This document shows, piece after piece, positions 41,311 to 62,608 of a DNA stretch of 64,000 nt; the first letter of the stretch is position 1; each line of letters begins with the position of its first letter. The notes under the pieces were generated by a model. That model made no database searches. It was not told where the DNA came from and saw nothing but the letters and a program-made list of their open reading frames with translations. Origin of the DNA: Struthio camelus (Eukaryota > Chordata > Aves > Struthioniformes > Struthionidae); contig NC_090942.1 of NCBI RefSeq assembly GCF_040807025.1, positions 77,667,987 to 77,731,986 on the forward strand, in the 5' to 3' direction. A program made the position numbers and the translations under genes.

Positions 41311-41316
41311 AATAAG

Positions 41317-41447
41317 ATGTCTCAAACAAGGAGAACTCCCAGGCACTTTGTTCTCTCCAGCTACCCAAGTGGAGCACCAGGAGAGGAAAGTTACAGCAGC
41401 CTCCTAACAATTCCAGACACCACACAGCAAATGGAGTTTAATATCAG
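41317..41447 (+). CDS. BIK: BIK coding exon 1
   Basis: Encodes residues 1-43 and two bases of Ser44. The exon starts at 41311 after TTTTTGCAG; the donor is AG|GTATCA. This N-terminal part is Ser/Thr-rich and poorly conserved. The frame is also open upstream to an ATG at 41101, inside the intron. Confidence 0.8.
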
Positions 41448-44400
41448 GTATCATGCTGCATTAATGCTCCTTTTGTCTTCCCCTCTCACACCCAGGTACA
41501 AAACCCCAGACTTTCAAGAAGACTCTTTGCTAAGCCAAATAATCAGCGGATAGTATTGAAAATAGAATAGATACAACTGTAGATAACCTGTAGTGCTTAA
41601 CACTGATCACATAACATTATTCTGCATTAAATGTCAATGCACAAGCACGCAGATGTGGTTCTTCATTAGAAACCCAGCTGTTATAACAAGCAGCTGAGGA
41701 AGCCATTTTTACATAATTCTCTAGGCGCCTCTCATAAACTGATAGAGCTGCTTTTTTTCCTGTGTAATCCCGTACATAATTTTTTTCCAGTTCAAGAGCC
41801 CAGAGGCAGGCTTTGCCCATGTCTGTGAAAATTATTTTCTATGTGTTTTTTGTTTGACTGACCAAACCAATCCCAAGGTATTTTTTAAACAGCTCTCTAG
41901 AATTTGGCTCTTAAACCTACTGTTCAGCAAATCTCATAAAGAGATCTCAACAGAAATACAATAGATTAAAAATATATAACCTGATACTGTTTTTCCACCA
42001 AAAAATGGAAGCATGCCTAAGAGAAGCCAAATTTCATGGGAAATTTTCATCAAGTCTAAACAGTGTTTGCAGTTAGCTATTGTGCTTCACAGAAGTTGCA
42101 GTCCAAGGACCTGTATGCCCCAGTACTTCCTTAAGAAACTTCGCATTTTGGTCAGATAGCGCTCTAGCATCACCCAGTAGCTGGAGATTCACTGTGGAAA
42201 TCATTGGCGTAAATCAGCTGGACAACAAAGTGAGCAGTTATTTAATATGATTTTTTGGAGACATCCAAACTGAAGGATGGTTCGATATTTTGACTTTGGA
42301 ATAATAATAAAAACAAACCAGAATTCTATTGCCCTATATAAAGGAAATAGACACCTAAAAAGCAACATGATTTTTTCAAAAGTGCACCATATGCAGCTTT
42401 TTATAAAAAAAAAATCAGAGCACTTTTGCATATGTTTAAATACGGACTTAAGACGTCTAATCAATAAAACTGTTAACAAAAACCCCAAACCCTGAACATT
42501 CAGTTTTTACATGCCCAGCTTGGTCAAACTTTTAGCGGAATAATTGTGCCTGACCTCTGCAGAGCTTTCTAAAGACTCAGTGTTACAGTGTTTTCCTCTA
42601 ACACACACATCCTGAATACCTTACAGCACAGCTATCCAGGTTGGCCATCAGCTGGCAGTAATTGGGGATGAATTTAATAGAACATACAACAGGAAGTTTG
42701 AAGATACACTGCTTCACCTGGCTCGTGGGTAAGTGATGTTATTGGATAGCGTCAGTCTTTGCATACTTTTAGTATTCATCTTAGACAGATAATAATGTTT
42801 CTGCACCAACAGCAAAAATTTGTATTGCACCTACTACTGCTGTTTCACATAGAACCTAAGAAAATAGCTACTGAAGCTTGTGTTGCAAGGAGGAACTTTC
42901 TAATGTAAATTGTTTCCATAGACTACAGCCATTTACAGTTGAAAGACCTAAAAAAAAGATTTCTCCGTATTTAAGATTTCACAGTAGTTTCTCTAGGTTA
43001 AATTGTGCCTTAAAGCACAACTGATCGAGGAGAGGTCTGCAGCCTAGTAGGCATGATGCTTCAGGAATTAACAGGTTAGGGCACGTTAAATAATTTGCCA
43101 GTGCACGTAAATCAAAGGTGGCTAAACTAGTTTGAATTGCCTTTTATCTGCTGCGAGCTGACAGGACTCTGCTGTGTGGTTATTAGCTGCAGAGTAACTG
43201 ACATGCAGGAACCTCCTAATGCGATACACACAATTTTTGTCTGAACCCTAAATATACTCAAGTGCAATTCCACCTCTTTTCTCTCCTTGCTTCGGGGAGA
43301 GGAAAGTCAATTATTGCAGACCTCAGAAGCATGTGATTCAGTTACACAAATGTTCCTGAACATAGCATATAGACATAAAACTTGGATCTCAGTAAACCTG
43401 GATATAAGCTGCAGAGAGAGACTCTGCTGGGTTGTCACGTTAGTCTTATATTACTACACTCTGGTTCATTAAAGATCAACAGCACTCGTTGAGTTGTACT
43501 ATTCTTAGTTGGGAGCAAAGGCGCAATATTACAGTTCAGGAGATCTGCTGTACGTTTTCCTGTGTGATGTTGGTGATCAATTAATTCTAAAAACAAGGTA
43601 TTAAATTTCATACAAATGCAGGTGTAACAAATGTTGAAGAAATGCCGCAACTAAGTAGATTAAAACGTAAAACGCATTTCATCACTTTTCTATTATTACA
43701 TGTATTTCTTGACTTCCAATTATCTAACTGTTGGGCAGGAGAAATTGCAAGTTTTCCCGTCTAGGAAATTCTTCCTTTTGAACACCGTGGGCAGAATCTT
43801 ATGTTTAATTTGAAGTCAGCAATAAACAACGCTTTTTCAGCAAAAAGGACTAGTTAGCCTTTAACGCCCTACTAAGTTACTAGGTCTTCTTCCTAAATGT
43901 TTATAGAAATACACGTCTATGTTAAGCTCCATAGACTTACAAAAAAGAACATATTGGAGTTTTGGGTTTCTCTTCATAATTTTTTAAACCTTGGTATTTT
44001 ACTTTTGATCTTTAGAATAAATCTTTTATCCCCATGGTGGTTTTGTTGTTGTTGTTGTGTTGTTTCTTTTTTTTTTTTAAATCAGGGTTGCTATCAGTGT
44101 TTTCCAGACATGGAATATTATTAAAAGTGTTATAAGAAGCCTTGGAAATCTTTTGAGCAATAACTGGACTAAGAAGATCATTGGTTATGGAAGCTGGGTA
44201 TGTTCTCTCCCACTCTTTTTGTTGAGACGTGGGTAATAGCAACACCTAACTCCCATGTAAGCGTCAAGGAGTAAAGCACTCTAGGTTTGGATTTACTCCT
44301 TAGTTGGTTGCCCTCCCCTCCCCCCCCCCTTTTTTTTTTTAAACACTGAAATTTCTTGTTCATGGAGTATGCCAAAAGTCTGCAAACAGAACTGAACAAC

Positions 44401-44859
44401 TGCAAAAGCCCCACTGAAATCCCTGGGGGTCCGTGCAGAGAGGAGTTCTTTGCTATAAAAAGCTGTAAGAGTACATTCCAGATGGGGTAAGTGGGACTGT
44501 TCTCACTAGGGTTGCACCCTATATTCTGGAGAAGAGCTGAGGGGGGTCTTTAGAACTTCGATATGAATATGCCACTGCAACAGCCACACGAGTGGCCAGC
44601 AAAACTAGAACCTGACATCCAACCCTTGTTTCTGGAAAGGAACTTGACTATATTCACAGTTTAACGCTAATTTTAGATGCAGGCATTCTTGTTAGCGTTT
44701 CTGCACCATCTTTTCACTGCTTGTTATTTCTAATTACCTTCCCTTTTCTTTCCACAGATTTGTAGGCTTCCTTTCAGGTGTGTGTGCCAGAAGCTGGTGC
44801 CTGCAGCCTTGCTTGTTGTTGCTTTTTGGTGGACCATAAATTATGGACTGCGGAATTAA
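41317..44859 (+). CDS. BIK: BIK, tail-anchored BH3-only apoptosis inducer (4 coding exons, 148 aa)
   Basis: BH3-only proteins bind pro-survival BCL-2 relatives and promote BAX/BAK activation; mammalian BIK is tail-anchored, mainly in the ER. Exons are 41317-41447, 42627-42728, 44086-44197 and 44758-44859, totalling 447 bp. All junctions are GT-AG with matching phases (2, 2, 0). The protein starts MSQTRRTPRH. It has a BH3 core QVGHQLAVIGDEFNRTY (48-64) with the hallmark Leu53 and Gly57-Asp58, a predicted amphipathic helical stretch, GSW at 113-115, and a C-terminal hydrophobic anchor LVPAALLVVAFWWTINYGL (128-146) followed by RN. Human BIK (160 aa) shares MS at the N-terminus, LAxIGDE, a GSW before the anchor, and the place between TTLL1 and MCAT. 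The ATG follows the acceptor by six bases. Oddly, the BH3 region resembles BAK more than human BIK. A diverged BAK-like paralogue is the alternative, but position and size favour BIK. Confidence 0.87.
42627..42728 (+). CDS. BIK: BIK coding exon 2 (BH3)
   Basis: Encodes Ser44 to the first part of Gly78, including the whole BH3 motif and FEDTLLHLARG. The acceptor is CTTACAG. A second AG five bases on (CACAG) would shift the frame and lose the BH3, so the first is chosen. The donor is GTAAGT. Confidence 0.9.
44086..44197 (+). CDS. BIK: BIK coding exon 3
   Basis: Encodes the end of Gly78 to Trp115, including VFQTWNIIKSVIRSLGNLL and NNWTKKIIGYGSW. Acceptor AAATCAG follows a TTG/T-rich tract; the donor is GTATGT. 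Confidence 0.85.
44758..44859 (+). CDS. BIK: BIK coding exon 4 (membrane anchor, stop)
   Basis: Encodes residues 116-148. After ICRLPFRCVCQK comes a 19-residue hydrophobic segment with FWW, then RN and TAA. Acceptor TTTCCACAG. The pattern of basic residues, a single helix and a very short tail is that of a tail-anchored protein. Confidence 0.88.
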   Translation: MCRLPFRCVCQKLVPAALLVVAFWWTINYGLRN

Positions 44860-58217: not shown

Positions 58218-58405
58218 ATGGAAGCGGTACCAGGCTGGGTCCCAGCAGTGGGTTTCACACTCTTGCCCCATGCAGGAGGATTTTTAGGAGGCAAGATAAC
58301 CAAAAAGGAAATCCCCGTGTGGTATGAAACTCTACAGAAGCCATCTTGGCGTCCACCTAACTGGATGTTTGCTCCTGTTTGGGGAACTCTCTATACATCT
58401 ATGGG
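58218..58405 (+). CDS. TSPO: TSPO coding exon 1
   Basis: Encodes residues 1-62 and two bases of Gly63. The exon begins at 58205 after TGTTTCAG with 13 bases of 5' UTR. Donor GTATGT. Read-through past the donor gives a longer unrelated open frame, which is intronic. Confidence 0.96.
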
Positions 58406-61400
58406 GTATGTTTTTTCACATTGTATTAAGGCACTTATCCGATCTCAGAGTTGCTTATGGTACTGTGCTGGATCAGAAAACTGTATTTTTGTATTCCTGT
58501 GGCTCTACAACTGTAAGAAACTGTGTCAGGCTCCCTCTTCAGCAGGTAGAAACATGTTTTGGGAGTTGTGCGTGGCTTTGATAGGACACTGCTCTGTATG
58601 CAAAAAAGTCCACATCAAAAGCAGCCGTTTGAAAAAAAAATCTGCGATTAATTAGCTTTCCTCCTTCACTCTGAGGGGGAGACCTGCCAAACTGTGCAGC
58701 GATGGAGCCAGGCAGCCCTGGGATTCCTCCTACCTACGTGCTTTAGTAGTTTTAAAATTAAAAGTCATTGGGATAGAACTATTCTAATTAAAAGCTCAAT
58801 TAAAAGAAGCCAAAATCAAAACTAAGGTACTTGTCCTTTCAAATAAAACTGCCAGGCTCTAAAACTCTAAATGTGTGAAACCAGTGCCTGCCTTCTTATT
58901 TAACTAGTTTAAAATACTTGACAACACAGCAATTACTGTCAAATGAATAGGGTATCATGAGGCCAAATACCATTCCCACAGGTACCTTAAACATTTAGTA
59001 ATACTGTATTCTGGCAACTGTCACTTTTAATAAGATGCAGCAAAAACATTTATAGAGGTAGGTGGTCCCTGGAGATTGTCCTTGCATCTGCTTGGACAGT
59101 TATGATAATTCCTCACAGACTGCTCCAGAAGTAGCCCACCCAACATAGCGTGCTTTTATATTAACTCTCGTGAGCAGTGCCACAGAGAGGAGAGGTAGCA
59201 CGCTGCTGTTAGAGCCCGAACAGCGGCTGGTGCAGCTGCCAAGCACAAAGTGATGCTTTGTTTCCCCCTTCCACGCTTCTTCATTAAGAACGAGCTACAC
59301 GCCCAGATTCGGCATGCTTTTTCCTAGCTATCAAATAGGCATTACTGCTAACCCAACAGTAAAAATTTTGGGGCCGCAGTTTGCGGTTTATAGCTTACCC
59401 TTGCTAGCTCTTCCATCATGCCAGTGCATTTTAAGCGATTCCTACCTTGTGTATAGCACTGGCTTAACCACAGACGGTTTCAGAGAGATCAACTCTTTTC
59501 CAAGTTGAGATTACACAGTTACCCTGCTGCTCATCTTAAATACCACAGTCTGATGTAAAATACAGCAGTGATGCAGTATGTCTGAAAAACGTATCTGAAG
59601 GTGAAATTCTCTCACACACTCTCTCTCCTCTTGGTTTCCTTTTCTTTCAAGAAAAGCTTTGTAATTTCTGCAGCCTCATGTGCTGTGCCCTCTTTTTTGT
59701 CTATATTCTTTCTCCTCTTCTACAGAGTTTTTTTTTTTAAATGAATCTTCCCTCTTGTATAATCAGGGAGTTAGCATTGGAATCAGAACGTTATTGTCCT
59801 ACGAGTCGATAAAAGATGCCTTTTTTCAAAGAGACGAGAACTCGGTGGCTTTCCCATGAAGAGTTTCCTTCACGTTGACTGCACAATTCGTAATCCGCAG
59901 TTGCTGGGGTTTCCTCATCGTAAACCTGGCCATCAAGTTAAGCATTTTAAAAATCCTGATTGTGACAGCTGGTCACTTACTTTAACAATACCAGAATATC
60001 AGTATTATTCGGAGGTGGGTGCTGCAGGTTACGTACCAGACGTCTAGCACCTGAGTCCGTTTCCTCAGTGCTTATCAGACCTTTTTTTCTGTAACCCATC
60101 CTGCACGCATGTTCCTTGGACCGATTAAGACATCTCATTCCTTTAGAATCCCTTGAATACATTAAAAGGAAGAAATAACTGAAAGCAAGAAATAATAAGC
60201 TTTCATGCCGGTCTTTGACATTTAGTTCCCTAGCTGACTTGTACCTAATCATCTTGCGCTGAAATGAAAGTTAGATCTGTGAACAACTGCAAGCACATAC
60301 TAAAGCTCTTTAAGTCACTTAGGAGCAGATTTCTCTTCCTTTTGGGAAGAGAAAATGTGAAGTTTCTCATCCTTCCTCTCCCATACAAAGTTTGTTTGCT
60401 TTGTTTTTTTTTTTATTCCCCTAAACCGTCTGCTTTGTGCAATCAAACTGCCAAGCTATCAACAGCTGTGTGGTTTAGTCCTTACGAAAGGAATAGCCAG
60501 GAAGCAATCTTGGTTGTTTACTGGGCCAAAAAGAAAAAAATAATCTTTCCTATATGACACATGAATGAAGACAAACGCTTGCGAGCACCCATACGGATAT
60601 TTGCTACTAAAACAAATAATGCTTAAAAACTGGCCTCCATCTTTGCTCCACTGCTGACATCCGTCTGAGCCCCCTGCTGTCCAGCACAGAGCACAGTTCA
60701 GTTCACATTGCTACCAAGATGGAGTCTGTATTCTGGGTACAAATACTGAAACAGGGATATCATTTAGGATGTTGGCATTTTATCCAGGGCAGTCTACTGT
60801 CTCATGCAATGGCTGTGCAGTCATCTGGACTGAAATCTAGCTAATGCCTAAAGGAAAAGTCAAACAAGAGCAAAACAGATAGTCTTGGGCAGTGACTGCT
60901 CCCTGCTCTTTCAGGCTTCTTCAGTGCAAAAATAAACCTGCATTAGTAAACCTGCCAAGTCCGAAGGATTCTCGTCTTTGGCAGCTTTTGTTCTGAGATG
61001 CCTCCAGTGACCGGTTCGGTGGCATGAAGATGATCCGTTCAAAATCTTCCAACCTGGTTGGCAGATCTTGCAGAAGCAAGGCTCCCATGGATGGGAAGAG
61101 CGCTGCTGGCTCTTAATTCTTCCCTTGGAAGTCCTAAAATCTTTGTTCTCCTCATCTTTGTCTCCTCCCTTCTGAGATGTGATTAGGGGTTCCTTATGCT
61201 CTAACACCATTCACACTATACTCACCTGTCTTTGGGCCGCTACTCGTTTTGTCCGTTCCTACTTCAATTCCTACTTCAATTCCTACTTCTCCCATATCTT
61301 CATTTCAACCATTTGAAAATGCATTTCTTTGTTTTAAAGCATCATCTCCCATTACCAAAATAAGTTTCTTCACTATTGAGAGACCTAGCTTTTCCACTCA

Positions 61401-62608
61401 AGCCCTCGACTTGCTTCCATTTCAATACGCCATTCTCGTCAAAGACTGAAATGCAGTAGGTAATCAGCTCCTCTGCACCTGGAGAGGAGAAATGATTTTT
61501 CTCTCTCTTTACTGCTACCTGCAGCATATGATCAGCTCTGTGCAGTCAGTTATTCGGCCAGGCAGTGTCTGGATATCTTCCTTTCCATATGAATTCAGAC
61601 TCCGACACTGAAGTCATTTCGTTTGGCCAAGGCTACAGTTGCCTTCTAGCCAATGTACAGAATTACACCTTATGTTTGCTTTCTTCAGATATGGCTCCTA
61701 CCTGGTGTGGAAGGAACTGGGGGGCTTCAATGAAAAGTCTGTGGTTCCACTGGGTCTGTATGCAGGGCAGCTGGCATTAAACTGGGCATGGACTCCCATA
61801 TTTTTTGGAGCTCACAAAATGGGATGGGTAAGTAGAAAAACAAGTTTCTTAAGCATAGACTCCCGCTATCATTTACAAGGTGCTAAGAGTAAAGTTTTGG
61901 GTTGCAATTTTTTTTTCCTCCTTGAAAACGAACCAGATTCATATAATTGGTATAGAATATGGCTTAGGCAGTAGTTATCTAAAATTCTCTTCAACGCGTG
62001 CCTGCAACTGCCTGAGAAAATTTACCTATCTACAGCATCATTACATGTTTAGATTTCAAGTAGCTCTTTCTGTCACCTTTTGATAAGAGCTTTGTGCGAC
62101 TGAAAAAGTAAACACTTATGCCTTAGCAAAATTCCTAGGTACCTCTTCGGCAAACAGCAACAATAAGAGCGTATCATGACATTACTCAGTCAATAGGTAT
62201 CCGTACTAGACGAGACTGATTTTCTGTAGTCTGAAAAGAAACAAGATAGCCTCCAAAATAAAAATCAATAATAAAAACAAAAATAAAAAGTTTTTCTGAG
62301 AAGGCATCCGCTCACAAAGGGATCCAACAAGTGCCAGAGCCAATGCAAACTACGTGGGAAGAGCCACACAAATACTGTCTAGTCAAGAAAACGCAACAAG
62401 TAAAAACGCTAACCACCTTCCTGTGTTTCAGGGTTTGGTGACTCTCCTACTCACCACCGGTGCAGCAACAGCTACAACTGCTTCCTGGTGTAACGTCAAC
62501 AGAACGGCAGCGTATTTGATGGTTCCTTATTTAGCTTGGTTAACCATGGCTTCTGTGCTCAATTACCGTATCTGGAAGGACAATCACAACAAGAAACAAC
62601 CCGAATAA
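58218..62608 (+). CDS. TSPO: TSPO, translocator protein of the outer mitochondrial membrane (3 coding exons, 167 aa)
   Basis: TSPO/MBR family membrane protein with five helices. It binds cholesterol and porphyrins and is the classical peripheral benzodiazepine receptor of the outer mitochondrial membrane. Coding exons are 58218-58405, 61689-61827 and 62432-62608, totalling 504 bp and 167 aa (human 169). Junctions are GT-AG with phases 2 and 0. The N-terminus [20 protein letters not shown] matches the family; [10 protein letters not shown] (40-49), [20 protein letters not shown] (52-71) and [19 protein letters not shown] (91-109) are conserved TSPO signatures. A CRAC-type cholesterol-binding motif, V151-L-N-Y154-R155, lies in the last helix, followed by a charged tail ending KKQPE. 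It is not TSPO2: the position beside MCAT marks it as TSPO. Non-coding first exon(s) lie in the 51.8-52.8 kb CpG-rich region. Confidence 0.97.
61689..61827 (+). CDS. TSPO: TSPO coding exon 2
   Basis: Encodes Gly63 (last base) to Trp109: [20 protein letters not shown] and [20 protein letters not shown]. Acceptor CTTCAG, donor GTAAGT. Confidence 0.97.
62432..62608 (+). CDS. TSPO: TSPO coding exon 3 with stop
   Basis: Encodes residues 110-167, including helices 4-5 and the CRAC motif in [12 protein letters not shown]. Acceptor GTTTCAG. The stop TAA is embedded in an AATAAA hexamer (62604-62609). Confidence 0.97.
   Translation, partial: GLVTLLLTTGAATATTASWCNVNRTAAYLMVPYLAWLTMASVLNYRIWKDNHNKKQPE

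Follow-up and report, generated by a model that had tools for sequence, protein, structure and literature searches.

The window, a stretch of 64,000 nucleotides of the Struthio camelus genome (G000:C1:77,667,987-77,731,986), contains a BIK gene with four coding exons on the plus strand (41317-44859) that encodes a protein of 148 aa, with GT/AG at all modelled splice sites. In the following list of features, and in the junctions given below, a slash marks the splice site.

41311-41447, plus strand: BIK exon 2, with the ATG at 41317; residues 1-43 and two bases of Ser44
41447, plus strand: donor of BIK exon 2 (CAG/GTATCA), phase 2
42627-42728, plus strand: BIK exon 3, 102 nt, residues 44-78, containing the BH3; phase 2 at both ends
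42640-42720, plus strand: BAK-like BH3 and next helix of BIK, residues 49-75
42729-44085, plus strand: BIK intron 3, phase 2
44086-44197, plus strand: BIK exon 4, 112 nt, residues 78-115, the putative shortened counterpart of the 181-nt BAK1 exon 4
44159-44197, plus strand: NNWTKKIIGYGSW in BIK exon 4, ending at the Trp codon and followed by a phase 0 intron
44758-44859, plus strand: BIK exon 5, 102 nt with the stop, encoding the C-terminal membrane anchor; counterpart of the 105-nt BAK1 exon 5
58239-62605, plus strand: TSPO exons (span of three matches), downstream of BIK

The length of 148 aa given in the original prediction led us to seek exon 2 as a frame open from an ATG for 43-45 codons and 2 nt more; of the two candidates in the window (at 41447 and 37114) the one at 41447 was taken. 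This choice is supported by the peptide named Bik in PDB entry 5tzp (chain B, ISSAIQVGHQLALIGDEFNRAYSRK), because the peptide crosses the exon 2/3 junction: 21 of its 25 residues are identical with window BIK, and it contains the junction residues IS-SAIQ, including two from the exon 2 side. We take this peptide to be chicken, and its partner in 5tzp is presumably a viral BCL-2-like protein; the record holds only the peptide of Bik, yet at this level of identity the bird-type BH3 itself was already known. All of the residues first noted (V49GHQLAVIGDEFNRTY, F68 and LLHL at 72-75) are present in the spliced frame, and the span given with them (42627-44197) holds exon 3, intron 3 and exon 4 but leaves outside it exon 2 with the ATG and the anchor exon. 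Since exon 3 is 102 nt long with phase 2 at both ends, its skipping would keep the frame and yield a BH3-less protein. The acceptor score of this exon (0.6) is the weakest of the three that were scored, those of exons 3-5, the others being 7.0 and 8.6. BIK appears to be a single-copy gene in this genome, with four of six matches in the genome search being its own exons and the other two having E values of 3.3 and 6 (10 candidates scored).

The identity as BIK, initially argued from a place between TTLL1 and MCAT, is borne out by position and profile. TTLL1 motifs lie on the minus strand at 10.8-18.8 kb of the window, MCAT on the minus strand near 50-51 kb and TSPO on the plus strand near 58.3 kb, where the names and motifs of TTLL1 and MCAT are our assignments. 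The PF12201 (BIK) profile covers residues 37-138 of the window protein at 26.2 bits, a narrow pass over the cut-off of 25 and far below the 260.9 and 239.2 bits of human and mouse BIK, whose sequences, here and in all comparisons that follow, were typed in and not taken from a database record; exons 4-5 alone reach E 2.2e-4 and 21.6 bits, under the cut-off. Its architecture resembles that of BIK / NBK / Blk (PF12201): an amphipathic stretch comes after the BH3, then GxW and a C-terminal anchor, and the gene occupies the TTLL1-MCAT position. The hydrophobic moment is 0.54 for the BH3 helix and up to 0.60 for the stretch of residues ~85-105, which marks both as amphipathic; the C-terminal 25 residues are hydrophobic. 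In Smith-Waterman alignments mouse Bik scores 79 (shuffle maximum 43) through SVIRSLGNLLSNNW...GSW, whereas human BIK scores 45, which is not above its shuffles (maximum of 300, 49).

The BH3 and its flanks show a different affinity. Over this region BIK matches human BAK at 18 of 32 residues and the BAK1 of its own genome at 14 of 32. A phmmer search of PDB chains with the BH3 exon returns 5tzp_B (E 2.6e-9) and then BAK chains from 2.7e-6; when the query was lengthened, BIM chains came in no earlier than 0.086 and BCL-2/BCL-XL chains no earlier than 0.24. For the flank +5 to +22 after IGD the shuffle p is 4e-5 with human BAK, 0.0019 with own BAK1 and 0.039 with own BID, compared with 0.22 for human BIK, 0.26 for mouse Bik and 0.71 for own BAX. 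The block from -9 to +22 around IGD gives scores of 78 (human BAK), 51 (own BAK1), 39 (own BIM, 22 positions only), 36 (own BID), 17 (mouse BIK), 14 (human BIK) and 3 (own BAX). Smith-Waterman scores are 93 with human BAK (300 shuffles, maximum 43) and 69 with own BAK1 (maximum 49), so that window BIK scores higher with human BAK than with the BAK1 of the same genome. Outside the BH3 the direct similarity of BAK and BIK is weak, and the alignable part is limited to ~32 residues, within which the likeness to BAK is above chance. The proposal of a BAK-like BH3 is upheld by the PDB search, where only 5tzp_B stands ahead of BAK, and by the flank comparison with human BAK. Judged by these scores, all of these proteins share the core BH3 motif, whereas the flanks side with BAK and the remaining protein with BIK, so that bird BIK bridges the BIK and BAK families, although human BIK does not exceed shuffles. 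The BH3 flanks of window BIK are BAK-like rather than mammal-BIK-like; such flanks seem to be absent from mammalian BIK, and the BH3 of birds may have stayed closer to BAK than that of mammals. A loss in mammals of what birds retained agrees with the human and mouse BIK sequences, but the zebrafish Bik peptide is ambiguous, scoring 53 with own BID, 48 with human BAK, 45 with own BAK and 41 with window BIK.

Gene structure extends the likeness to BAK1, whose exons lie within C24:5,932,658-5,935,839 (L013) of the same genome. In both genes the exon that carries the BH3 starts 34 nt upstream of the Ile codon of IGD, in phase 2, and the intron splits a Ser codon as AG/C (BAK1 AGCAG/C ACG GGG AGC CTG GTG; BIK ATCAG/C ACA GCT ATC CAG GTT). 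This intron lies elsewhere in all three of the other genes compared in this genome (BAX, 124 nt and phase 2; BID, 59 nt and phase 1; BIM, 74 nt and phase 1), and being common to BIK and BAK1 it points to BAK. The three intron phases (2, 2, 0) agree between the two genes, and the exon lengths in BAK1 and BIK are 136/137, 144/102, 181/112 and 105/102 nt. The intron after the BH3 exon (intron b) is in phase 2 in both but lies 42 nt (14 codons) nearer the BH3 in BIK, so that its homology rests on phase and an assumed deletion. Comparison of the exon 2 proteins of BIK and BAK1 gave no clear similarity. The last intron follows GSW in BIK, in phase 0, and follows GGW in 10 of 10 BCL-2-fold genes, namely those reached by a PF00452 search of the genome, with gene names assigned by us. 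This count derives from 15 rows at 12 scanned loci, from which two chance rows (L010 at 3663 and L011 at 1716) were dropped; BOK, BCL2 and BCL2L1, which came up repeatedly, contribute one gene each. For pro-survival genes PMC8998228 describes such a phase 0 intron after GGW, which by its account is retained in sponge BAK-like genes. Being general to BCL-2-fold genes, the GxW motif with its phase 0 intron marks BIK as a descendant of the BCL-2 fold at large.

The neighbouring genes pair BIK with BAK1 as well. TSPO begins on the same strand 13,380 bp past the BIK stop, MCAT lying between them, and the other TSPO-like gene of the genome (C24:5,952,914-5,954,860) lies 17,075 bp past the BAK1 stop in the same order and strand. 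These two genes account for all six matches of the TSPO genome search at E <= 0.001, and the chance of a single randomly placed copy falling so close is ~2/100,000; TSPO was chosen because it adjoins BIK in the window, although human TSPO2 was also considered in the choice. Of the three PACSIN genes, one precedes BIK by 88 kb (C1:77.61-77.62 Mb), one precedes BAK1 by 383 kb (C24:5.55 Mb) and the third is at C5:39.4 Mb. One SCUBE-like cluster, with 88-93% identity, follows BIK by 159 kb (C1:77.87-77.99 Mb), a second, with 74-76%, precedes BAK1 by 652 kb (C24:5.27-5.28 Mb), and a third is at C5:23.36-23.37 Mb; the search gave 114 matches (150 of 422 candidates scored), and only these three clusters were used among many EGF-type matches. 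The names PACSIN, SCUBE and TSPO2 are our presumptive assignments, guided by identity. The paralogous neighbours pair BIK with BAK1 in all three of the families searched (TSPO, PACSIN, SCUBE), although PACSIN and SCUBE were picked from human gene maps and so are not blind tests. The TSPO2-like gene at C24:5,952,914-5,954,860 adjoins BAK1 as TSPO adjoins BIK, which suggests that it is as old as the split of BAK1 and BIK, although TSPO2 is reported from mammals and birds in PMC3790746. Separately, the EGF-type matches on G000:C40 and G000:C41 form eight pairs, seven offset by ~19.13 Mb and one by 19.54 Mb, as if these contigs were near-identical long copies (a sex chromosome pair or haplotypes).

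Together these data are best explained if BIK and BAK1 are sister genes that arose by duplication of a chromosomal block, after which BIK shrank to a tail-anchored BH3-only protein, a reading to which we give a probability of about 0.86. BIK resembles BAK1 in the BH3 with both flanks, the pre-BH3 intron with its split codon, the three phases, the length of the last exon and the same-strand TSPO-type neighbour, and differs from it in that BAK1 has the full fold (PF00452) and BIK is ~37 codons shorter over exons 3-4. The duplicated block would also have carried the TSPO, PACSIN and SCUBE genes, and its duplication was probably part of the early-vertebrate whole-genome duplications. With the introns as anchors for placing the deletions, BIK would have undergone in-frame losses of ~14 codons towards the 3' end of the BH3 exon and of ~23 codons in the exon after it. 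The missing 14 and 23 codons would correspond in BAK to the fourth and fifth helices with BH1. Their loss would have removed or reduced the central helices including BH1, while the BH3 helix, the BH2 exon boundary and the tail anchor probably stayed. The original suggestion of a BAK-like multidomain ancestor, some features of which survive in bird BIK, gains strong support from the identical intron site, the matching phases and the duplicated neighbours.

Two other origins have to be weighed against descent from the BAK lineage. If the likeness to BAK were convergence, BIK would have evolved its BH3 independently or taken it from elsewhere, as could be imagined for a short linear motif that is found inside and outside the BCL-2 family (a passage of PMC9171138). 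Over the shorter block from -9 to +11 the scores of window BIK are 45 with zebrafish BIM, 42 with own BIM and 41 with own BID, compared with 63 for human BAK and 49 for own BAK. Convergence nevertheless leaves unexplained the identical intron site with its split codon, the phases, the boundary of GxW with a phase 0 intron and the TSPO neighbours, and we regard it as very improbable. Descent from some other BCL-2-fold relative (BID, BAX, BOK or an older ancestor) could account for the zebrafish Bik peptide, which scores highest with own BID and then with human BAK, and for the presence of BID, a BCL2L13-like gene and BIK on one contig (C1). Against this stand the start of the BH3 exon in BID and BAX, at the positions given above, and the three tested neighbours, which pair with the contig of BAK1, and such an origin seems improbable to us.

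Within the sister-gene reading, the nature of the block ending in GSW bears on which part of the fold was lost. It had been taken for a BH1 trace, and NWTKKIIGYGSW indeed gives a shuffle p of 0.016 against nine own BH1 blocks and 0.0076 against BAK alone, but this match is the best of 27 offsets and so is not significant after correction. On the BH1 side, the optimal gapped alignment of BIK with human and with own BAK pairs NW105 with the NW of BH1 and not with BH2, and the residue counts from HL to NW are similar (23 in human BAK, 28 in BIK). In that case NNWTKKIIGYGS would be the BH1 remnant, the loss would start in the middle of BH1 and reach the BH2 end, and the stretch from BH3 to BH1 would have been kept; however, the N of NW is exon residue 8 in BAK1 and 27 in BIK, so intron b would need to have moved. 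If intron b was kept, the block fits the BH2 end with one 23-codon loss: with the offset fixed beforehand by the intron position, NNWTKKIIGYGSW aligned to the BH2 end of the family gives p 0.008-0.037 over four overlapping lengths (0.034-0.13 against BAK alone). The exon ends after GSW in phase 0 like the BH2 GGW of BCL-2-fold genes, so the block more likely belongs to the BH2 side. We consider NNWTKKIIGYGSW a probable remnant of the BH2 GGW side, with the BH1 assignment a possible but distinctly weaker candidate.

What remains of the protein has the make-up of a BH3-only protein. It carries the core L53AVIGD58 (L-x3-G-D), and a PF00452 search of window BIK at a limit of E 10 listed no match (with filters that drop most matches above 0.1). 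The BH1 NWGR and BH2 GGW of BCL-2-fold effectors are represented only by NWTK and GSW. Structure prediction of the 148-aa protein, proposed at the outset as a way to look for a BCL-2-like bundle, gave helices at 35-101, 104-113 and 118-147 and no bundle, in a single-sequence model of low confidence (mean pLDDT 60.8, pTM 0.29) that yielded one Foldseek match at E 6 and none at E <= 0.001. The idea that bird BIK acts as an effector is not sustained by these results: a pore-forming protein that keeps the bundle could appeal only to the BAK-like BH3 and the anchor, and has against it the missing Pfam match, the codons lacking relative to BAK1 and the model, so that we find it scarcely credible, with the case against it coming mostly from length because the model is single-sequence and weak. 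Window BIK is not a BAK, only its paralogue, and bird BIK is most likely a tail-anchored BH3-only sensitiser. Its BH3 helix (V49, L53, I56, D58, F60) would enter the groove of pro-survival BCL-2 proteins, and at ER or mitochondrial membranes BIK would free BAK and BAX. Published tables give 12 nM for the zebrafish Bik peptide with NRZ, a pro-survival protein of fish (PMC6148235), and 30 nM for Bik with one avian-virus BCL-2-like protein, presumably the pair of 5tzp, but no binding of Bik to a second, the passage giving no species for the peptide (PMC7823800).

A more speculative extension, which we think doubtful, starts from BIK as a sister of BAK1 from the genome duplication and holds that bird BIK, with the BAK-type BH3 and the helix behind it retained, still acts on BAK, as a direct activator or as a mimic of one half of the BAK:BAK BH3-in-groove dimer, with the function weakened in mammals as the BH3 flanks diverged. 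In a passage of PMC7335050 the human BIK BH3 shows no BAK binding by SPR and barely activates BAK, and the same passage notes that direct BAK activation by BIK has been reported by others. Bird and mammal BIK may differ in possible effects on BAK.

BIK was among the proteins that first defined the BH3 motif, as a passage of PMC9171138 recounts, and our searches of open papers, a scope that leaves out most subscription journals, turned up none that derives BIK from BAK. The origins of BH3-only proteins are difficult to establish, since a short motif by itself does not distinguish descent from convergence; intron sites and duplicated neighbours do. Tracing one BH3-only gene back to a pore-former with a lost core would provide a concrete origin for a member of the class, make testable whether sensitisers arise through the breaking of effectors, and imply that 'BH3-only' need not be a single lineage.

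The genome also shows two close pairs of other BCL-2 family genes. The BCL2L13-like gene and BID lie ~22 kb apart at G000:C1:70.67-70.70 Mb, on the contig of BIK. BAX and a second BAX-like gene are found within ~3.6 kb on the minus strand of L011 (G000:C120), at ~5.47-5.94 kb and 7.97-9.02 kb. This contig is 29.7 kb long and looks GC-rich by eye; assemblies may easily miss BAX in birds.
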